A stretch of DNA of 49,501 nucleotides from positions 1 through 49,501 of the forward strand of contig CACMUP010000010.1 of NCBI GenBank assembly GCA_902616905.1, given 5' to 3'. This document shows, piece after piece, positions 37,878 to 47,287 of this stretch. How positions within the stretch are numbered: position 1 is the first letter of the stretch; the number at the start of each line of letters is the position of its first letter. The DNA is from an uncultured Bacteroidota bacterium (GTDB taxonomy: Bacteria; Bacteroidota; Bacteroidia; Flavobacteriales; Flavobacteriaceae). A program made the position numbers and the translations under genes. Below the pieces are notes generated by a model, which was given only the letters and a program-made list of their open reading frames with translations, ran no database searches and had not been told where the DNA came from.

Positions 37878-38450
37878 TCATCTAGGTTTTATAAATTGTT
37901 TTACCAAACTAGTTGCTTTTTTTTTTGCCTTATTTAGATCATCATTAATTAATATAACATCAAAATTTTTAGAAAAAGCTAACTCTCCAGCAGACTTATC
38001 CAATCTTTGTTGAATTTTTACCTCGTTTTCTGTTGCTCTTTTTCTAAGTCTTTTTTCTAATTCTTTTATTGAAGGAGGTTGAACAAAAATTGCTAAAGTA
38101 TTTTCCGGAAATTTTTTTTTAATATTCAAACCTCCCACTACATCTATATCAAATAAGACATGCTTTCCTTCCTTCCAAAGCCTTTTAATCTCTGAATTTA
38201 GGGTACCATAATAAGTCCCTTCATAAACCTCTTCGTATTCGACGAAAGCATTTTCGATAATTTTTTTGGTGAAACTTTCTTTGCTCAAGAAATAATAATC
38301 TTTTCCATTTTTTTCACTCCCCCGTGGAGGTCTAGATGTTGCTGAAATAGAAAAACCTAATGGTAAATTTTGTTTTAGAAGATGATTTACAACAGAAGTT
38401 TTGCCACTACCAGAGGGAGCTGAAAAAACTATAAGCTTACCTTTTTTCAT
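37878..38450 (-). CDS. gmk: Guanylate kinase
   Basis: Gmk phosphorylates GMP to GDP. The P-loop is SAPSGSGKTSVV (about residues 10-21). The GMP-binding region has ISATSRPPRGSEKNGKDYYF and FVEYEEVYEGTYYGTL. HVLFDIDVVGGLNIKKKFPE and the lid IFVQPPSIKELEKRLRKRAT follow. At 190 residues the length is normal. It starts one base after the yicC stop. Confidence 0.97.
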   Translation of the reverse strand: MKKGKLIVFSAPSGSGKTSVVNHLLKQNLPLGFSISATSRPPRGSEKNGKDYYFLSKESFTKKIIENAFVEYEEVYEGTYYGTLNSEIKRLWKEGKHVLFDIDVVGGLNIKKKFPENTLAIFVQPPSIKELEKRLRKRATENEVKIQQRLDKSAGELAFSKNFDVILINDDLNKAKKKATSLVKQFIKPR

Positions 38451-38451
38451 T

Positions 38452-39309
38452 TCATAGTACGTTTAATAATTGCTCCTTTATTTTTTCGAGCTCATCTTTC
38501 ATTTGAACAACAACTTTTTGTAAATCAGCATGATTTGCTTTAGATCCTATAGTATTTATTTCTCTACCCATCTCCTGAGCAATAAAACCAAGTTTTTTAC
38601 CATTTGGAGAATCATTATCCATAATTTCATTAAAATAGGTAAGATGATTTTGCAATCGAACTTTTTCCTCAGTAATATCAAATTTTTCAAGATAGAAAAT
38701 AAGTTCTTGTTCAAATCGATTGTTATCAATTTCTATGTTTAACTCATTTAAGCCAACCTTAAGTTTTTTTTCAATTTTTAACTTTCTTTCAGGATCAATT
38801 TTAATTATTGATTTGAGATGTTCATCAATCAGATCTAGTCGAATTTTTATTTCTTTTTTTAAAACTGACCCTTCATTTTTTCTAAAATCATTTATGTCTT
38901 TTATGACTTCATCAAAAAGAGTTAAGATCACTTTTTTTTCTTTTATCTCTATCGATTCTTTTTCTGAGGACAAAGCTTCTGGTAATTTCATTGCTAAGGA
39001 TAAACTTTCACTATCTGATATGTCAGCGATATCCTTAATTTGACCCATATAGGCTTTTACAATTCCTTTGTTAATGTTTATTGGAGTCATATCACCGTTA
39101 TATTCTACAAAGAGATTAATATCTATTTTACCTCTATGCATTTTTTTAATGAAGACTTTACGGATTTCAGGATCTAATTCCTTAAGATAAGAGGGCGTCC
39201 TTAGATTAATGTCAGCATTTTTAGAATTTAAAGAACGTACTTCAATACTAATATTTTTGTCCTTAAATTGAGTTTCTTTTTTCCCAAAACCCGTCATGGA
39301 CATTATCAT
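38452..39309 (-). CDS. YicC family protein (putative endoribonuclease)
   Basis: A 285-residue YicC/YloC protein; E. coli YicC is reported as an endoribonuclease acting on small RNA. It has the N-terminal MSMTGFGKKE, the middle RSLNSKNADINLRTPSYLKE, and the C-terminal DUF1732 segment with KKLGFIAQEMGREINTIGSK and ANHADLQKVVVQMKDELEKI. It starts 10 bases after the DUF1080 gene and heads yicC-gmk-nadD; a separate promoter inside the upstream gene is possible. Role in this phylum unproven. Confidence 0.93.
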   Translation of the reverse strand: MIMSMTGFGKKETQFKDKNISIEVRSLNSKNADINLRTPSYLKELDPEIRKVFIKKMHRGKIDINLFVEYNGDMTPININKGIVKAYMGQIKDIADISDSESLSLAMKLPEALSSEKESIEIKEKKVILTLFDEVIKDINDFRKNEGSVLKKEIKIRLDLIDEHLKSIIKIDPERKLKIEKKLKVGLNELNIEIDNNRFEQELIFYLEKFDITEEKVRLQNHLTYFNEIMDNDSPNGKKLGFIAQEMGREINTIGSKANHADLQKVVVQMKDELEKIKEQLLNVL

Positions 39310-39319
39310 AAGCTACTAT

Positions 39320-40055
39320 TTAAAGTTTTCGTATTTTTATATTTCTAAATGATACTTTATCTCGATGATCTTGAAGTCCAATTTTTCCTGATCTGAGTCT
39401 TGCAAAGCGCTCAAAGTCACATTCATCATTAAATTTTGAATTAGCAACTAATTCATCCCATTTTTCACCTCTCAAAGGGAACTCAACAATCTTAGTTCCG
39501 TTTAGAACTACGCTCCCTTCATTTTTATTATGATTAATGGTTAATAAAACATGATTCCATTTTCCAGCAGGATTACAAACATCCTTGGAGGGTTGAACAA
39601 GATCATAAAGTGCACCAGCCTGACGAAATTTTGGATTGGCTTTTGCATCTGGGTGACGGTCGTTATCTAGAATCTGTATTTCTGGTCCAGTAGAGTAGGG
39701 TTTATTGATATTTTCTCCTTCTTGAACTCCCCAAAAAATTCCACTATTTCCCCCCTCTGAAATATTCCATTCTATTGATAGTTGAAAATTTTTAAATATT
39801 TTATCTGTTACAAGATCGTGCACGTAATCTCCTTTTGGAATAAGATCAGGATCAAAAGTTAGTACCCCTTTTTTAGCTGTCCAAATGGGTTTAATTCCCT
39901 TACGATTAAATCTATGCCACCCATTAAGAGTTTTACCGTCAAATAGAGATTCCCATTCTCCATTTGAACTTGATTTATCATTTGGGAGTAAAACCGTACT
40001 ACCTAAAAAATAAGATTAGGATCAAAAGAGGAAAAATAATTTTGTTAATTTTCAT
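39320..40055 (-). CDS. DUF1080 / 3-keto-disaccharide hydrolase family protein, apparent frameshift after the signal peptide
   Basis: From the GTG at 39823 onward the reading frame encodes 167 residues of a DUF1080 domain (ISEGGNSGIFWGVQEG, GPEIQILDNDRHPDAKA, AGALYDLVQPSKD, GKIGLQDHRDKVSFRNIKI). The same frame continues upstream without ATG through ESLFDGKTLNGWHRFNRKG, the family start, to a stop at 40013-40015. An ATG at 40055, 4 bases after the preceding gene, opens a perfect signal peptide (MKINKIIFPLLILILF) in another frame. Removing one T from the T6 run at 40005-40010 joins them into a 244-residue exported protein. It is either inactivated or a sequencing error. Members act on 3-keto glycosides. 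Confidence 0.8.
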
Positions 40056-40059
40056 TTTT

Positions 40060-41112
40060 TTAAAGATTAAGAATTTTTTTAAGGAAATTTTCGTCAATTT
40101 TTCCTCCAGCGAAGTCATCGAAAGATTTTTGAGTTGCTTCAATAATATGATTTTTGATAAATGGAGCTCCTTCTCTAGCCCCTTGTTCAGGACTTTTTAT
40201 ACAGCACTCCCATTCCATAACAGCCCATACATCGCAACCGTACTCTGTTAGTTTTGTGAAGATGGTTTTAAAGTCAATTTGTCCATCTCCTGGAGAACGA
40301 TATCTACCTGCACGGTCTATCCAGTCACCATAGCCTCCATAAGCACCTTTTTTCCCATTTGGTTTAAATTCTGAATCTTTAACATGAAACGACTTGATAA
40401 ACTGGTGATAGTGATCGATATATTCTAAATAGTCTAATTGTTGAAGAACAAAATGACTAGGGTCATATAAAATATTAACGCGCTTATGACTATTTGTAGC
40501 TTCGAGGAAACGTTCAAAAGTTACACCGTCGTGAAGGTCTTCACCAGGATGTATTTCATAACAAACATCAACTCCATTTTCATCATATACATCTAATATA
40601 GGTTTCCACCGTTTTGCTAATTCAGAAAAACCTAATTCAACTAATCCTTCAGGGCGTTGTGGCCAAGGATGCCAAGTGTGCCACAAAAGTGCTCCAGAAA
40701 AAGTGGCGTGTGTTTTTAATCCTAAATTTTTACTTGCTTTTGCAGCTTTTTTCATTATTTCAACCGCCCATTCTGTTCTTGCTTTGGGATTATTTTTAAC
40801 GGCATCTGGTGCAAAATTATCAAACATTAAATCGTATGCAGGATGCACTGCAACAAGCTGTCCTTGAAGATGTGTTGAGAGTTCCGTAATTTCTAATCCA
40901 TAGGAATTAATTTTTCCTTTTAGTTCGTCACAATAGGTTTGACTCTCAGAAGCTTTATCAAGATCAATTAGGAAAGACTCCCAGGTTGGGATCTGGATTC
41001 CTTTATAACCAAGATCTGAAGCCCATTTGCACATCCCCTCAAGACTATTAAAAGGTGCTTTATTATCCACAAATTGAGCAAGGAAAATTCCTGGCCCCTT
41101 TACAGTTTTCAT
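40060..41112 (-). CDS. Sugar phosphate isomerase/epimerase-like TIM barrel (cytosolic)
   Basis: A 350-residue xylose-isomerase-like barrel. The metal-site ligands expected of the fold are visible: VCYEIHPGEDLHDG (Glu), NILYDPSHFVLQQLDYLEY (Asp), KSFHVKDSEF (His) and AVMEWECC (Glu). It has no signal peptide. I choose the ATG at 41112, not 41133, because it overlaps the upstream oxidoreductase stop as ATGA and the protein then begins MKTVKGPGIFLAQFVD. Related barrels act as isomerases, epimerases, dehydratases or C-glycoside lyases on (keto)sugars. Position beside Gfo/Idh and DUF1080 genes suggests action on a 3-keto sugar. Confidence 0.88.
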   Translation of the reverse strand: MKTVKGPGIFLAQFVDNKAPFNSLEGMCKWASDLGYKGIQIPTWESFLIDLDKASESQTYCDELKGKINSYGLEITELSTHLQGQLVAVHPAYDLMFDNFAPDAVKNNPKARTEWAVEIMKKAAKASKNLGLKTHATFSGALLWHTWHPWPQRPEGLVELGFSELAKRWKPILDVYDENGVDVCYEIHPGEDLHDGVTFERFLEATNSHKRVNILYDPSHFVLQQLDYLEYIDHYHQFIKSFHVKDSEFKPNGKKGAYGGYGDWIDRAGRYRSPGDGQIDFKTIFTKLTEYGCDVWAVMEWECCIKSPEQGAREGAPFIKNHIIEATQKSFDDFAGGKIDENFLKKILNL

Positions 41113-42248
41113 TGATTGTCTAGATGTACCCATACATTTCCATTTTTATTTGATTCAACAACTTTTTCAATAAATAGCATACCACGAACTCCGTCATTCA
41201 TATTTGGATATTCCCCATCGAATGCATCTTCATTTCTTAGAGCTTTAGCAACCCCTTTATATATATTACCCATTGCGTCAAATATCCCTTCAGGATGACC
41301 ACCAGGAAGTTTTGTTCCATCGTTTGCCACATCCGAGACAAAAGCGTGTCCAGGCTTTATTATACTTTTTGGCTTATCATCAGTTATATGATACAAAATA
41401 TTAGGGTTTTCTTGTTCCCATTTAAAAGCTCCATTTTTACCATAGATTGCAACTGTAAGACCATTTTCCTCACCTGTTGCAATTTGACTTGCACGAATTA
41501 CTCCTTTAATTGTTTTTGAAAAACGTATCAGAACAGTACCATCTAAATCTAAAGAATTATCTTCATATACCATGTTTAAGTCTGAGAGTATTGATTTAAC
41601 TTCCATTCCAGTGAGATATTCTGTCATTTGAAAGGCATGAGTACCTATATCTCCTATACAAGAACTAATACCTGCTTTTTTTGGATCCAATCTCCAAACA
41701 GTTTTTCTCAATTCTGGATCATGAATTACTGGATTAATCCAACCCTGGTAATATTGAACATCAACTTTTTGTATTTCACCAAGCTCACCTTTAGCAATTA
41801 GATGTTTCATGTGGCGTACCATAGGATATCCAGTATAAGTGTATGTCACAGCAAAAATCGCTTTATGTTGTTTTTGAAGAGATTCTAGCTCAAGTGCTTC
41901 GTTGTATGAAGTTGTTAATGGTTTTTCACAAATTACGTGAAAGCCATTTTCAAGAAGCTTTTTTGCCATTGGGAAATGCAAAAAATTTGGAGTAAGTACT
42001 GAAACTACCTCAATTCTATCTTCTTTAGGGATTTTAGTTTCTTCATCTATAAATGTGTCAAAATCAATATAGACTCTATCTGTATTAACACCTATTTTTT
42101 TGGCAAAACTTGTGTTTTCATCATAATTTGGATTAAATACACCTCCAGTAATTTCGTATCTGTCGTACATGTTGGAGGCTACTCTATGTAAAACACCAAT
42201 TAAAGAGTCACCACCACCTCCCAATATACCTAATTTAATTTTACTCAT
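41109..42248 (-). CDS. Gfo/Idh/MocA family oxidoreductase
   Basis: A 379-residue NAD(P)-dependent sugar oxidoreductase. The N-terminal Rossmann part begins KIKLGILGGGGDSLIGVLHR. The signature EKPLTTSYNEALELE carries the catalytic-site Lys, and the C-terminal domain has AGISSCIGDIGTHAFQMTEY, in which Asp and His of the DxxxH motif stand. ATGA overlaps join it to the MFS permease gene upstream and the TIM-barrel gene downstream, so the three are tightly cotranslated. Family members oxidise sugars at C2 or C3 or reduce keto-sugars; here a 3-keto sugar is the best guess. Confidence 0.92.
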   Translation of the reverse strand: MSKIKLGILGGGGDSLIGVLHRVASNMYDRYEITGGVFNPNYDENTSFAKKIGVNTDRVYIDFDTFIDEETKIPKEDRIEVVSVLTPNFLHFPMAKKLLENGFHVICEKPLTTSYNEALELESLQKQHKAIFAVTYTYTGYPMVRHMKHLIAKGELGEIQKVDVQYYQGWINPVIHDPELRKTVWRLDPKKAGISSCIGDIGTHAFQMTEYLTGMEVKSILSDLNMVYEDNSLDLDGTVLIRFSKTIKGVIRASQIATGEENGLTVAIYGKNGAFKWEQENPNILYHITDDKPKSIIKPGHAFVSDVANDGTKLPGGHPEGIFDAMGNIYKGVAKALRNEDAFDGEYPNMNDGVRGMLFIEKVVESNKNGNVWVHLDNQ

Positions 42249-43456
42249 AATGTTTTGAATTTAATAGTTTCGTTTTTAAAAAAAATTAAAAATAAAGTTA
42301 AAACAACAAAAGAAAAAATTGCAGGCTGAATCCAAATTTTCTTCCATAAGTGACCAATATCAGAAATATATTGGTCAGTTAGCCATCCTGCAAATCTAAA
42401 ACCAATTAGCATTCCTATACCGTATGTTGCAAGAGTTATAAGTCCTTGAGCCGTACTTTTGTATTTTTCTCCTGCCTTAAAATCAGTGTAAATTTGACCA
42501 GAAACAAAAAAGAAATCATAACATACCCCATGAAGTAAAATTCCAAAAATCAACATCCAACTTTTAACTCCAGCATCTCCAAATGCGAAAAGCATGTAAC
42601 GAACGCCCCAAGCTAGAATGCCAAAAAATAACGCATTTTTTATTCCATATCTTTTTATAAATAAAGGTAATAGTAGCAAAAAAAGAACTTCTGAAATTTG
42701 ACCTAAAATCATTTTAGAGGCAGCCGCTTTCATACCAACTTCATTTAAGAACTGGTTTGCATGTTGATAGTAAAATGCAAGTGGGATACAAATTAAAATA
42801 GAGGCTATAAAGAAAAACAAAAACCCTTTATCTTTTAACATTGATAAAGCATCAAGCCCCAATAATTCTCTTATTTTTAATTTGTCGTCAGAGCCCAATT
42901 TAGGCGGTGTGTTTGGTAATATAAAACTATAAAGTCCTAAAAATACTGATGCAATAGATGACATATAAAATGTATTTTTTAGGGTTTGTGTCCCTTCCCA
43001 ACCAAAGTAACCAATAATTAATCCGGCAACTATCCATCCAACACTTCCTAATACTCTTATAGAAGCAAACTCTTTGGACGGATTCTCCATTTGGTGAAAG
43101 GCGACAGAGTTAGCTAATGCCAAAGTAGGCATATACAATAACATGTAAATAAAAATATAAGGATAGAAAGCAAAAAAATTATCTGCATTACTGACAATAA
43201 ACAATAATACTGCACCTATCAAATGTAAAAGACCAAGAATTTTCTGAGCTGCAAAATAACGATCTGCAATTAAACCAATAATAAAAGGAGCTATTATAGC
43301 ACCTATTGATTGTGTTTCATATGCCAGTGCTAATTCGCCTCCTGTAGCATTAAATTTTTGAGAAAGAAAAGTTCCCATAGTAACAAACCACCCACCCCAA
43401 ATAAAAAACTCTAGAAAAAAAAGGAATGAAAGTTTGAAACGAGAACTTAAGTTCAT
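42245..43456 (-). CDS. MFS permease, nucleoside:H+ symporter (NupG-like) family
   Basis: A 403-residue inner-membrane transporter with about twelve hydrophobic segments. It begins FLEFFIWGGWFVTMGTFLSQ, typical of the nucleoside:H+ symporter family. AYETQSIGAIIAPFIIGLIA with DRYF and VLGSVGWIVAGLIIGYFGW are also visible. Members in Bacteroidota often sit in sugar-catabolic clusters with Gfo/Idh and TIM-barrel genes, so the cargo may be a sugar or keto-sugar rather than a nucleoside (inference). It overlaps the Gfo/Idh gene by ATGA and follows the exported barrel gene by 3 bases. Confidence 0.9.
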   Translation of the reverse strand: MNLSSRFKLSFLFFLEFFIWGGWFVTMGTFLSQKFNATGGELALAYETQSIGAIIAPFIIGLIADRYFAAQKILGLLHLIGAVLLFIVSNADNFFAFYPYIFIYMLLYMPTLALANSVAFHQMENPSKEFASIRVLGSVGWIVAGLIIGYFGWEGTQTLKNTFYMSSIASVFLGLYSFILPNTPPKLGSDDKLKIRELLGLDALSMLKDKGFLFFFIASILICIPLAFYYQHANQFLNEVGMKAAASKMILGQISEVLFLLLLPLFIKRYGIKNALFFGILAWGVRYMLFAFGDAGVKSWMLIFGILLHGVCYDFFFVSGQIYTDFKAGEKYKSTAQGLITLATYGIGMLIGFRFAGWLTDQYISDIGHLWKKIWIQPAIFSFVVLTLFLIFFKNETIKFKTL

Positions 43457-43459
43457 AAT

Positions 43460-44419
43460 TTATAAACTAGAAGCAGCTTTTTCAAGTAATTTTTTTGTTG
43501 CAATGATACCTTCTTTTTCGCTAAGTTTATCTCCTTCATATTCTACACCAATAAAACCATTATAATCTGCTTTTTTAATAATTGATAATAACCTATAATA
43601 GTCAAGGATAGTTTCATTTCCATTTGCATCAAACTCATATGATTTTGCACTCAAGCCAAAGGCACGAGGTAACATTTCAGAAACACCTAAATATGGATCA
43701 TAAGGGTTATTACATTTATTATCTTTAAGAGACCCCCAATCCTCACTCATGCAAAAATTTCCAAAGTCTGGAAGTGTTCCACAATTGGAATAACTAACTT
43801 GATTAATCACTTTCATCAGAAGAGAGGCATTTGAAGACATACCACCATGATTTTCAACTATTACATTTATATTTAATGGTTCAGCGTATGCAGAAAGAAT
43901 ACTAAGACTTTCTATAGAATTTTTAATCCATGCTGATTCCTCTTTCTCTCCGTTTAGATTAAGTCTTACAGCAGAGCAACCCATTTTACTTGCAGCATTT
44001 ATCCAATCTTTATGATTTTCAATAGCTTGCTTTCTCTCTTGATTATCAGAAGTTGATAGATTCCCTTCCCCATCAATCATTATTAAAACATTTTTAACAT
44101 TGTACTGGGAAGCCAGATCATTATTTTTATCAATAAAAACTTTCATGGCATATGCTTTATCTTCACTCTCCGTAACATCAGTATATAGCTGGCTTACATA
44201 CTCTAAACCATCAAACCCTAAGTCGCTTGCCATTTTGGCAAATTCATATGGGGATACACCATTTTTACTGAATTCTCTATGATAGGACCATTGAGCTAAG
44301 GATAGTTTAAAAAATGGTTTACTTGACAAAGGCTTTTTTTTGATTTCATTTTTGAACGAAAATGAAAACACAAGAAATATACTCAATATTAATATTGAGG
44401 GAAATAAATTTGGTTTCAT
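43460..44419 (-). CDS. Exported sugar phosphate isomerase/epimerase-like TIM barrel
   Basis: A 319-residue xylose-isomerase-like barrel preceded by a hydrophobic leader (about residues 5-22), so it is periplasmic or membrane-tethered, unlike its cytosolic relative in this operon. It has SLAQWSYHREF, MASDLGFDGLEYVSQLY, INVIVENHGGMSSNASLLMK (Glu ligand), NCGTLPDFGNFCM (Asp ligand) and NGFIGVEYEGDKLSEKEG (Glu ligand). Where the third ligand His is expected the chain reads GLSAKSYEF, without His. First gene of the leftward operon; a TAATTTTG element lies upstream. Catalytic role unknown; may process periplasmic keto-sugars. Confidence 0.87.
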   Translation of the reverse strand: MKPNLFPSILILSIFLVFSFSFKNEIKKKPLSSKPFFKLSLAQWSYHREFSKNGVSPYEFAKMASDLGFDGLEYVSQLYTDVTESEDKAYAMKVFIDKNNDLASQYNVKNVLIMIDGEGNLSTSDNQERKQAIENHKDWINAASKMGCSAVRLNLNGEKEESAWIKNSIESLSILSAYAEPLNINVIVENHGGMSSNASLLMKVINQVSYSNCGTLPDFGNFCMSEDWGSLKDNKCNNPYDPYLGVSEMLPRAFGLSAKSYEFDANGNETILDYYRLLSIIKKADYNGFIGVEYEGDKLSEKEGIIATKKLLEKAASSL

Positions 44420-44535
44420 AAAAAAAGTTTAGTTTTATAATTTGTTTTATTATCTAAATTTAGACAAACAAAATTAATATATGGTAACCAATAATATATA
44501 TATTTACATTATACCTTAAGTAAACAGATGATTTT
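44420..44535. promoter_or_regulatory. Divergent control region of the sugar-oxidation cluster
   Basis: 116 bases between the leftward TIM-barrel operon and the rightward GMC operon. It holds a minus-strand TAATTTTG promoter element (44469-44476), a 10-base palindrome CTAAATTTAG (44454-44463) just downstream of it, and an odd palindrome TGGTAACCA (44482-44490) just upstream. A three-codon ORF, ATG-ATT-TTA-TGA (44528-44539), overlaps the GMC start codon out of frame. No regulator gene lies nearby. The palindromes are operator candidates only. Confidence 0.45.
44469..44476 (-). promoter_or_regulatory. -7 promoter element of the TIM-barrel/Gfo-Idh operon (TAATTTTG)
   Basis: An exact TAnnTTTG on the minus strand, 49 bases before the ATG at 44419, giving a leader of about 43 bases that contains the CTAAATTTAG palindrome. 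A TTG lies only 12 bases upstream of it, closer than the usual -33 spacing. Confidence 0.5.
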
Positions 44536-46227
44536 ATGAAGAATAATTATGACGCAATTGTTGTTGGAACTGGAATAACTGGTGGCTGGGCAGCAAAGGA
44601 ATTATGTGAAAAAGGATTAAAAACTTTAGTTTTAGAAAGAGGTCACATGGTTAAACACATTGAGGATTATCCTACTATTAATGATGATCCATGGGATTAC
44701 AAGACAGGAGATGTTATTACTAACGAAACTAAAAGAATCCAAGGTAAACAAAGCAGAACTGGATATACAACGATTGAATCGAGCAAACATTTTTTTGTCA
44801 ACGATTTAGAGCACCCTTACAATGAAACTAAACGTTTTGATTGGATGCGGGGTTACCACGTTGGAGGTAGATCCCTAACTTGGGGAAGACAATCCTACCG
44901 ATTAACAGACTATGATTTCGAAGCAAATCTTAAAGATGGAATATCTATTGATTGGCCGATTAGATATAAAGACCTTGCCCCTTGGTATGATTATGTTGAG
45001 GGTTACATAGGAGTTAGTGGTCAAAATGTAGGTCTCCCACAATTCCCTGATGGAAATTATTTAAAACCTATGGAACTTAATTGTGTTGAAAAACATCTAC
45101 AAACTTCGATTGATAAAAAATATAACGACAGATTATTAACAATAGGAAGAACAGCTATAATAACAGAAGGCTCAAAGCCAGGGCTTGGTAGAATGACTTG
45201 CCAATATAGATCCAAATGCAGAAGAGGGTGTCCATTTGGAGCTTATTTTAGTAGTAATTCATCAACTCTACCAGCAGCTGAAAAAACAGGTAATATGATT
45301 CTAAGACCAAACTCAATTGTGAGTGAAGTGATTTTAGATAAAAATAAAAAAAGAGCATCTGGAGTTCGCGTAATTGATAAAGAAACAAAAGAGGTTTATA
45401 TATTTAATTCTAAAATAATTTTCCTATGCGCGTCAGCAGTCCCGTCTACATCAATATTAATGCAATCAAAATCGGATGCTTTTCCAAATGGTTTGGGGAA
45501 TTCTTCTGATCAACTAGGAAGAAACATAATGGACCATCACTTGGGTGTTGGGGCTAGAGCTTCAACCGATGATTTTCAAGATAAATATTATTTTGGAAGA
45601 AGAAATAATGGAATTTATATACCGAGATTTAGAAATATTGGTGGTAACACAGATCAAAAAAAATTCTTAAGAGGTTACGGATACCAAGGAGGAGGTTCAA
45701 GACGAGGTTGGACTTCAAAAGTTGCAGAAATGGCATATGGAGCTCAATTCAAGGAGGAAATCCTAAAGCCAGGTTTATGGAGTATTGGTCTAGGTGGATT
45801 TGGAGAGGTTTTACCTTATGAAAATAATAGAATGACTTTAGATTACAATAAACTTGATAAATGGGGTCTTCCCACAGTAACATTTGACGCATCTATTAAA
45901 GAAAACGAACATAATATGCGTAAAGACATGCAACAACAAGCTGAAGAAATGTTAGAGAATGCAGGGTTTAAAAATGTTGTTGGTTATAACGGAGATTATG
46001 CGTTAGGTTTGGGGATTCATGAAATGGGTACAGCCCGAATGGGTCGTGATCCAAAAACGTCAATATTAAATAAATTTAATCAAATTCATGATGTTCCAAA
46101 TGTATTTGTAACAGATGGATCAGCAATGACCTCCGCTAGTAATGTTAATCCCTCACTAACTTATATGGCATTAACAGCAAGAGCTACAAACCATGCTTTT
46201 GAAGAACTAAAAAAGATGAATTTATAA
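44536..46227 (+). CDS. GMC family oxidoreductase, catalytic subunit of a membrane-linked sugar dehydrogenase
   Basis: A 563-residue FAD enzyme. It has the FAD Rossmann motif AIVVGTGITGGWAAKELCEK (about 8-27), GYHVGGRSLTWGRQSYRL (about 107-124), and the C-terminal active-site pair His495 (GIHEMGTARMG) and Asn538 (NVNPSLTYMALTARA). A Cys cluster, Cys222/Cys228/Cys232 in TCQYRSKCRRGCPFGA, could bind an iron-sulfur centre as in FAD-glucose dehydrogenases. It has no signal peptide and probably travels to the periplasm with the Tat-leader partner encoded next. Likely oxidises a glycoside or sugar, perhaps at C3, passing electrons to cytochrome c. Confidence 0.92.
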   Translation: MKNNYDAIVVGTGITGGWAAKELCEKGLKTLVLERGHMVKHIEDYPTINDDPWDYKTGDVITNETKRIQGKQSRTGYTTIESSKHFFVNDLEHPYNETKRFDWMRGYHVGGRSLTWGRQSYRLTDYDFEANLKDGISIDWPIRYKDLAPWYDYVEGYIGVSGQNVGLPQFPDGNYLKPMELNCVEKHLQTSIDKKYNDRLLTIGRTAIITEGSKPGLGRMTCQYRSKCRRGCPFGAYFSSNSSTLPAAEKTGNMILRPNSIVSEVILDKNKKRASGVRVIDKETKEVYIFNSKIIFLCASAVPSTSILMQSKSDAFPNGLGNSSDQLGRNIMDHHLGVGARASTDDFQDKYYFGRRNNGIYIPRFRNIGGNTDQKKFLRGYGYQGGGSRRGWTSKVAEMAYGAQFKEEILKPGLWSIGLGGFGEVLPYENNRMTLDYNKLDKWGLPTVTFDASIKENEHNMRKDMQQQAEEMLENAGFKNVVGYNGDYALGLGIHEMGTARMGRDPKTSILNKFNQIHDVPNVFVTDGSAMTSASNVNPSLTYMALTARATNHAFEELKKMNL

Positions 46228-46237
46228 AACTATTAAA

Positions 46238-46813
46238 ATGGATAGAAGAAAAGCAATAAAAAACATTGGAACAGGAATTGGAGCAATAACATTAACTCCT
46301 TCGATAGCTGCTATTTTTCAAAGCTGTCAGTCATCAACAGGATACACACCAGCTTTTATTCCAAAACAGGATTTTAATTCTTTTTCTCAAATATTGGAAT
46401 TAATAATTCCAACAACAGATACTCCTGGAGCAATAGAATTAAAGCTTCCTGAATTTCTAGATGCTTATGTTGATGCAGTTTGGAGTCAAGATCTTAAAGA
46501 AAGTTTTTCAAAAGGATGGGAAGCATTCAAAAATGATGCGTTAAATATCAATGGAAAAGAAAATGCTAACCAGATAACAAAAGAGAATTGGGATGGACAA
46601 TTATCAAAATACTTAAAGCAGTCAGTAAAATCCAACGAGACTGATGAATTAGCTTTAAAGTTTGCGAATGACTTGAGAGATTTAACGATAAATTCCTATA
46701 AAATAAATGAGTATGTTGGTGAAAATCTCTTAGCTTATAGTCCTATTCCAGGAGATTATATAGGGTGTGTTGATCTTGAAGAAACTACTGGTGGAAAAGC
46801 CTGGTCTTTATAA
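46238..46813 (+). CDS. Gluconate 2-dehydrogenase subunit 3 family protein with Tat-like leader
   Basis: A 191-residue small subunit. The N-terminus MDRRKAIKNIGTGIGAI has a twin-arginine pattern and a hydrophobic core, followed by IFQSCQSS, which may also be a lipidation site. The body has LELIIPTTDTPGAIELKLPE and FLDAYVDAVWSQDLKESF, the family hallmarks, and ends in LAYSPIPGDYIGCVDLEETT. In the characterised FAD-dependent sugar dehydrogenases this subunit escorts the GMC subunit through the Tat system. It starts 10 bases after the GMC gene and overlaps the cytochrome c gene by 6 bases, convergently. Confidence 0.9.
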   Translation: MDRRKAIKNIGTGIGAITLTPSIAAIFQSCQSSTGYTPAFIPKQDFNSFSQILELIIPTTDTPGAIELKLPEFLDAYVDAVWSQDLKESFSKGWEAFKNDALNINGKENANQITKENWDGQLSKYLKQSVKSNETDELALKFANDLRDLTINSYKINEYVGENLLAYSPIPGDYIGCVDLEETTGGKAWSL

Positions 46814-47287
46814 CATCCTTAAATATTCTGAAATTGCTCTAGCTTCTTCTTGAGTAAGATTTTGGTTAAGCATCAAAATGTTATTATATTTTTTAAGTAA
46901 AGCAATAGCGATAGGATCCTCTTTTAACATTTGAGTTGGATTTAGTAGAAAATTAATTACCCATTCAGGACTCCTCCTTTCGTAAATTCCTTTCATTGCA
47001 GGGCCAATTAATTTTCTCTCAGCCATGTGACAAGCTGTGCATTTAAGAGTAAAAGCTTTTTTTCCTTCATCTGCCATAGTTTTATTAATTGCATCATCAA
47101 AAACCAACTCTTTAATAGGGCCAATACCTTTATTATTTAAATCAATTGGAATTTTGTTAGTTTCAGAAGGTTCATTTTTTTTGGTTTCACTTTGAGTACG
47201 ATTATATTGAAATCCTTTTTTCTTTTTATCATTAGAACCACAACTGATTAAAATCATAATAAGGTAAATAATAAGTCCTTTTTTCAT
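46808..47287 (-). CDS. Lipoprotein cytochrome c (class I, single haem)
   Basis: A 159-residue protein with leader IIYLIMILISC (lipid Cys 16). A disordered Lys/Asn/Ser-rich linker of about 45 residues leads to one cytochrome c domain. The haem site is CTACH (Cys83, Cys86, His87). RKLIGPAMKGIYERRSPEWV follows, and the Met in NNILMLNQNLTQEEA is a candidate sixth ligand. It is tethered in the periplasm and is the natural electron acceptor for the GMC dehydrogenase encoded convergently. A respiratory role for other donors is also possible. Confidence 0.92.
   Translation of the reverse strand: MKKGLIIYLIMILISCGSNDKKKKGFQYNRTQSETKKNEPSETNKIPIDLNNKGIGPIKELVFDDAINKTMADEGKKAFTLKCTACHMAERKLIGPAMKGIYERRSPEWVINFLLNPTQMLKEDPIAIALLKKYNNILMLNQNLTQEEARAISEYLRML

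Follow-up and report, generated by a model that had tools for sequence, protein, structure and literature searches.

Three described pathways come closest to the locus analysed here, as far as the available text of the respective papers goes. The lac locus of Caulobacter crescentus comprises lacABC, a DUF1080 gene (CCNA_01705), a transporter, two epimerases and a reductase; genes of the locus show fitness defects on lactose, lacABC also on salicin and raffinose, and some other users of lactose, Indibacter of the Bacteroidetes among them, have LacA and DUF1080 genes side by side (PMC9007349). The beta-glucoside pathway of Agrobacterium tumefaciens proceeds by oxidation, elimination, hydration and reduction with GlycDH, OGE, HYD and Gfo (PMC10628242), and Bacillus smithii has a levoglucosan pathway of LgdA, B1, B2 and C (PMC7676230). 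We analysed a 49,501-nucleotide stretch (the window; contig CACMUP010000010.1 of assembly GCA_902616905.1, C10 in our numbering) from the 1.56 Mb, 68% complete genome of an uncultured member of the Flavobacteriaceae. Eight adjacent genes at 39320-47287 encode a GMC dehydrogenase and its Gluconate_2-dh3 partner (subunit 3), a lipoprotein cytochrome c, a DUF1080 protein, an exported and a cytosolic TIM barrel, a Gfo/Idh oxidoreductase and a permease. We consider it probable that they form a non-hydrolytic pathway of glycoside catabolism, split between periplasm and cytosol, with electrons delivered to a lipoprotein carrier in a fixed slot beside subunit 3.

A first-pass annotation made from the sequence alone had assigned the eight genes to these families. 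Both the families and the coordinates were confirmed, as Pfam models matched above their curated cut-offs: 3keto-disac_hyd (156 bits), AP_endonuc_2 (131 and 75 bits), GFO_IDH_MocA (67 bits), Nuc_H_symport (353 bits), GMC_oxred_C (75 bits), Gluconate_2-dh3 (68 bits) and Cytochrom_C (37 bits). Five minus-strand genes, for the DUF1080 protein, cytosolic TIM barrel, Gfo/Idh protein, permease and exported TIM barrel, diverge from the plus-strand GMC and subunit 3 genes, and the minus-strand cytochrome gene converges on subunit 3 with a six-base overlap. In the proposed pathway the GMC enzyme, exported with subunit 3 by the latter's twin-arginine (Tat) leader, would oxidize the C3 hydroxyl of a small glycoside; the DUF1080 protein, perhaps with the exported TIM barrel, would cleave the keto-glycoside by elimination in the periplasm; and the NupG-like permease would import the keto-sugar product. 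The cytosolic TIM barrel would then hydrate this product, as strong homology indicates, and the Gfo/Idh enzyme, judging by position and precedent, would reduce the hydrated product to a free hexose. Electrons would pass from the GMC/subunit-3 complex to the carrier in the slot, a cytochrome c in this genome and, in many relatives, an azurin. The GMC type, conserved neighbourhood, lack of a glycosidase in the cluster and periplasm-to-cytosol order are supported, with the hydratase, reductase and lyase roles corrected.

The cytosolic TIM barrel (40060..41133, minus strand) matched PDB entry 8ro4, titled '2-hydroxy-3-keto-glucal hydratase', with 542 bits over 349 residues and 63% identity, and by this strong homology is probably a hydratase for a 2-hydroxy-3-keto-glycal. 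We take 8ro4 to be AtHYD of A. tumefaciens. Residues E193, D224, H250 and E309, presumably metal ligands given what is known of the family, were invariant in all eight aligned rows including 8ro4. The first-pass annotation had tied this protein and the Gfo/Idh protein to 3-keto-glycoside and C-glycoside cleavage; the hydratase-type assignment makes the Gfo/Idh protein (41109..42248, minus strand) most likely the terminal 3-keto-sugar reductase. The latter matched the uncharacterised oxidoreductase 3v5n (286 bits) and scored below every NCBIfam equivalog cut-off. The gene described earlier simply as an MFS permease (42245..43456, minus strand) is within that superfamily of the NupG/YegT nucleoside-symporter type, with 316 bits to 8zoj in addition to its Nuc_H_symport match, and is the candidate importer.

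The GMC large subunit (44536..46227, plus strand) matched the large subunits of fructose and glucose dehydrogenases in the PDB with 126-137 bits, followed by pyranose oxidase with 40 bits. Its C-X5-C-X3-C motif (residues 222-232), His495 and Asn538 align with their fructose dehydrogenase counterparts, and at the position matching His495 a PDB title records an H1147A variant. This cysteine pattern is of the 3Fe-4S cluster type; it was found by pattern search in 54 of 56 open reading frames (ORFs) of relatives. The protein starts directly with the nucleotide-binding fold and has no strongly hydrophobic leader. The adjoining subunit 3 (46238..46813, plus strand) carries the twin-arginine leader, with an RR pair among the first 20 residues of 55 of 56 ORFs from relatives and Cys30 invariant in 40 aligned rows. 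We place the GMC protein, on sequence grounds, in the fructose/glucose dehydrogenase complex branch, with a putative C3 regiospecificity. A cholesterol, choline or inositol oxidase, named at first pass as the outcome that would contradict the pathway, is not what was found; NCBIfam scores for cholesterol and choline oxidase were far below the cut-offs (70 of 850 bits and less).

The DUF1080 protein (39320..40055, minus strand) matched PDB entries 8rr2 and 8tda with 119 bits and is a probable exported 3-keto-glycoside lyase. DUF1080 proteins are now treated as eliminating lyases, so the earlier label of simple 3-keto-disaccharide hydrolase was given up; the protein used in PMC13273386 is presumably also a DUF1080 member. 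For the exported TIM barrel (43460..44419, minus strand) we obtained a predicted model with a pLDDT of 92.1. Its best Foldseek match was 4ovx (1.2e-29), followed by DgpB-C C-glycoside deglycosidase chains from 4e-15 and then by sugar epimerases from 1.8e-12. Because the epimerases follow in the ranking, its class as C-glycoside deglycosidase-like is only suggestive, and we regard it as a candidate second 3-keto-glycoside lyase.

The neighbourhood of these genes is not due to chance, and its core is conserved in Flavobacteriaceae. A genome scan with the hydratase gave at least 587 related loci; among the best 80, the 62 loci of at least 18 kb contained Gfo/Idh in 60, GMC in 55, subunit 3 in 53, the exported TIM barrel in 52, DUF1080 in 47 and the permease in 38. 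A first set of 42 fetched loci, in which one genome was present twice and several contigs ended early, gave these counts (hydratase, the bait, and Gfo/Idh 42 each, exported TIM barrel 38, GMC and DUF1080 36 each, permease 33, subunit 3 32, cytochrome 12). A hydratase orthologue at E <= 1e-60 was present in 57 of 296 genomes and 37 of 140 genera sampled across the phylum, and a near full-length hydratase in 34 of the 38 genomes of the window's own genus. Two genes beside the locus (window 37878-39309), a yicC-like and a guanylate kinase (GMK) gene, were found in 33 and 34 of the 62 long loci, and the chromosomal place is therefore old.

The lipoprotein cytochrome c (46808..47287, minus strand; CTACH at residue 83) had been counted as a member of the dehydrogenase set. 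It is present here, but it is not a fixed part, since many close relatives have an azurin instead. Across relatives (loci are given L-codes and genomes G-codes), the slot beside subunit 3 is occupied by one of two lipoproteins, a cytochrome c or an azurin, and seldom by both. In L038 and L046 the cytochrome is replaced by another lipoprotein with a type 1 copper motif. Copper-bind scored above cut-off in three of three such slot proteins tested; against the NCBIfam azurin model TIGR02695 (cut-off 105.1 bits) two reached 107.7 and 106.3 bits and the third, from L038, stayed below at 98.7. From these profiles we identify the copper lipoprotein as an azurin; in our alignment the azurin rows were picked by the copper-ligand pattern, so that ligands in 27 of 27 rows follow by construction.

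Among the 38 genus genomes, 20 had only the cytochrome, 12 only azurin, two both and four (G006, G021, G022 and G029) neither, where cytochromes were counted at about 45% identity or more and include a broken copy in G005 and a distant copy without context in G027. For this distribution a one-sided Fisher test gave p = 4.5e-5 (neither this test nor the shuffles and permutations below are corrected for relatedness). We also considered an orthologous cytochrome hidden elsewhere in the 12 azurin-only genomes, several of which are only 56-80% complete; nine had only 33-38% matches inside larger proteins and three nothing. Linkage on one contig placed the cytochrome on the subunit 3 side in 18 genomes (14 directly at its end, four with 496-1456 bp between) and azurin there in 12, always 11-80 bp from the subunit 3 match; linkage was not seen in the other eight, namely G006, G008, G013, G021, G022, G026, G027 and G029. 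In G026 the cytochrome lies beside a 4HBT gene on another contig, and about 2.5 kb after subunit 3 contain neither acceptor. Two genomes have both carriers. In G009 an azurin truncated at the contig end is followed by the cytochrome and subunit 3; in G004 the cytochrome is at the main locus, and a second GMC/subunit-3 pair (L210:2017-4717, C5; GMC 64%, subunit 3 54% identical) has azurin at 29 bp from its subunit 3. A weak DUF1080 match (25%) lies upstream of that second pair. At L058:15907-17657 in G004, a 24-residue remnant of the cytochrome end stands next to subunit 3, separated by an inserted ORF from the full cytochrome gene; a short cytochrome match similar to this remnant is seen in G008.

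Outside the genus, azurin lies at most 13 bp from subunit 3 in L113, L115, L119 and L122, the cytochrome at most 34 bp from it in L109, L111, L114, L117 and L184, and L144 has the two side by side. Elsewhere in the Flavobacteriaceae, those azurins that were seen mostly lie at a distance of 0.8-4.3 kb, and neither acceptor turned up in 69 of the 122 loci in this survey, which holds some duplicates and many loci ending near subunit 3; tight coupling is therefore shown only for these planktonic clades. The fixed slot alternating between heme and copper, together with the azurin beside the second complex of G004, suggests that both proteins are electron acceptors of the GMC/subunit-3 complex. Whether the pattern arose by swap or by differential loss, complexes of one type appear able to use either carrier, depending on the lineage. 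Among the listed titles and abstracts on azurin with GMC or glucoside dehydrogenases, or in marine Flavobacteria, none described such a swap.

A tree of five neighbour genes (41 rows, of which 38 carry an acceptor label) requires six changes of acceptor type, each of them forced by starred branches; shuffled labels averaged 12 changes. The trees are of the 'quick' type, supported by SH-aLRT alone, with X in place of stops in tblastn translations. Six changes remained without the doubtful labels of G004, G009, G013 and G026, and five when four long rows were also left out; three fall within the genus, and the alternation recurs in a second clade (cytochrome in L109 and L111, azurin in L113, L115 and L119). 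The window, with its cytochrome, has one azurin-bearing relative (genome G019, locus L038) as its fully supported sister. DNA identity between the two lies mostly at 87-95% along GMC, apart from one 100-column step at 80% and a first step lowered by gaps. It is 65-78% in subunit 3; the acceptors cannot be aligned, and over most of the next gene identity is again 87-95%. Protein identities are 97% for the hydratase, 96% for Gfo/Idh, 95% for the permease, 94% for GMC, 90% for DUF1080, 89% for both the exported TIM barrel and GMK, 84% for YicC and only 68% for subunit 3.

This excess divergence of subunit 3, taken as divergence beyond that expected from five reference genes, was higher between than within acceptor types across the genus, with none of 2000 permutations as high (325 pairs, 26 genus rows). 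The same test gave 209 of 2000 for GMC (little effect), 1990 of 2000 for the permease (none) and 13 of 2000 for the exported TIM barrel (some); subunit 3 is therefore not alone in showing the effect. Azurin-azurin pairs exceeded the expected subunit 3 divergence even more than mixed pairs, a pattern in keeping with independent bursts of change of subunit 3 in the azurin lineages and less so with a single azurin-specific form; in the subunit 3 tree the azurin rows are not all grouped, with five acceptor changes of which three are forced. Import of subunit 3 together with azurin into L038 was considered and rejected, since in the subunit 3 tree L038 remains the sister of the window (99*); a better fit is faster divergence, or exchange with a close relative outside the sample. 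We tentatively propose, at somewhat less than even confidence, that this marine flavobacterial complex has an exchangeable redox-partner slot, in which lineages repeatedly change between a heme c and an azurin lipoprotein at one position while subunit 3 evolves faster as a docking adaptor fitting the new partner, and that the choice may follow the supply of iron and copper in the water. Sample names hint at an origin of azurin loci in open seas (such as the Red Sea and Mediterranean) and of cytochrome loci in coastal waters (such as the North Sea and Fram Strait). The fixed slot with its two alternating carriers offers a natural experiment in the exchange of a dehydrogenase complex's electron acceptor, and suggests a docking role for subunit 3.

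Several observations weigh against the glycoside pathway with a slot carrier. For subunit 3 a sequence search of the PDB found no match, the best E being 0.15, and Foldseek found none for its model at E <= 0.001; its kinship to a solved small subunit was thus rejected by both sequence and fold. The cytochrome is linked in only 9 of the 62 long loci. In this assembly the reading frame of DUF1080 is interrupted: the ORF with its start at 39823 covers the domain only partly, and the signal peptide of the gene, which starts at ATG 40055, is one frame off the domain, with a one-base break near the T run at 40010-40005. Signal peptide and domain lie in a single open frame in the nearest relative, L038, and an assembly error or very recent mutation is therefore likely. 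A very weak profile alignment (probability 0.8%) pairs Ser257 of the exported TIM barrel with the third of the hydratase's putative metal ligands, a His, and L109, L111, L113, L115 and L119 had no match to the exported TIM barrel or to the permease. These five are compact versions of the locus that keep DUF1080 and the acceptor slot. The Ser257 and the compact loci would also fit cleavage of the keto-glycoside by DUF1080 alone, the exported TIM barrel being either an epimerase or an accessory without activity, a reading that we hold to be quite possible while leaning the other way: the protein is present in 52 of 62 loci, E189, D218 and E295 are invariant in 43 rows, and the deglycosidase chains come directly after 4ovx in its fold ranking, with epimerases close behind. 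It is improbable, in our view, that the GMC enzyme oxidizes a free sugar or polyol for periplasmic energy gain, its neighbours serving an inositol- or rare-sugar-like pathway. Its closest solved relatives are indeed fructose and glucose dehydrogenases, and an IolE/IolG pathway was considered for the cytosolic pair; similarity to these is weak (hydratase to IolE 63 bits, cut-off 290; Gfo/Idh to IolG 50 bits, cut-off 355), set against the 542 bits of the hydratase to 8ro4 and DUF1080 in 47 of 62 neighbourhoods.

The carriers themselves could be general respiratory proteins that merely lie in the slot, with differential loss of two ancestral neighbours. The juxtaposition of both in L144 and G009 is as expected from this, as is the single group formed by the azurins of the genus (support 88); in G008 and G013, moreover, the cytochrome lies beside a 4HBT gene with no subunit 3 match in the next 4 kb. 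Bystanders of this kind would hardly be expected to keep the spacing of the azurins, 11-80 bp from subunit 3 in 11 genus loci and 31 bp in the twelfth (G037). Nor do they account readily for an azurin at the separate second pair of G004 while the main locus keeps its cytochrome, for the recurrence of the alternation in the second clade, or for the divergence of subunit 3, which exceeds that of most other genes between loci with different acceptors. We consider general carriers unlikely, and favour acceptors that would serve the GMC/subunit-3 complex.

The window's genome had seven DUF1080, two subunit 3, three GMC C-terminal domain and four SusD_RagB matches in all. The first-pass statement that glycoside hydrolase, SusCD pair and regulator are lacking holds for the ORFs listed in the window cluster; the SusD_RagB matches lie elsewhere in the genome, and in Zobellia russellii (L118:4227-9748) a glycoside hydrolase family 2 (GH2) beta-galactosidase and an extra GMC are found within the cluster, a hint that the substrate in that species may be beta-galactosides. 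A second cluster in the same genome (L097:4463-14486, C8) encodes a Tat-leader TIM barrel, DUF1080, a Tat-leader Gfo/Idh protein, subunit 3 and a GMC of 47% identity, followed by a PfkB kinase and a KDPG/KHG aldolase, which suggest a keto-acid product in that pathway. A third GMC (L099:6331-9565, C2), 62% identical to that of the window, lies beside a TIM barrel, with no match to subunit 3 at this place in the genome search. The genus is probably NS5_D: its member FRAM18_bin161 is assigned to NS5_D, Candidatus Maricapacicella, in a study whose available text reports 0 to 6 polysaccharide utilization loci (PULs) per NS5 species (PMC9122927). Since that study counts PULs, and its main text does not contain the words GMC, oxidoreductase, disaccharide or sucrose, a survey based on carbohydrate-active enzymes can pass such a locus by, near-universal as this known pathway is in one marine genus.

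Fructose dehydrogenase and flavin adenine dinucleotide (FAD)-glucose dehydrogenase complexes use a cytochrome subunit. The complex described here resembles them (PDB 7w2j, 8grj) in its GMC fold, cysteine pattern and aligned catalytic His and Asn, and differs in having a separate gene for a lipoprotein cytochrome or azurin. With the levoglucosan pathway of B. smithii it shares the four reaction types; that pathway has an NAD-linked first step and ABC transporter genes, and the available text of PMC7676230 mentions no GMC. The A. tumefaciens pathway has the same four reaction types and a very close hydratase, but no DUF1080 among the operon members named in the available text of PMC10628242, and AtOGE (8BVK), which we considered as a sequence relative of the exported TIM barrel, was absent from its matches at E <= 0.1. 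The lac locus of C. crescentus has the same functional gene list, by gene description, and its dehydrogenase and DUF1080 protein are likewise placed in the periplasm. The locus is therefore of a known kind, and the combination of genes singled out at first pass is not new. What is new is the alternation of cytochrome and azurin, of which the available text of PMC9007349 makes no mention, in a pathway and gene combination already described.

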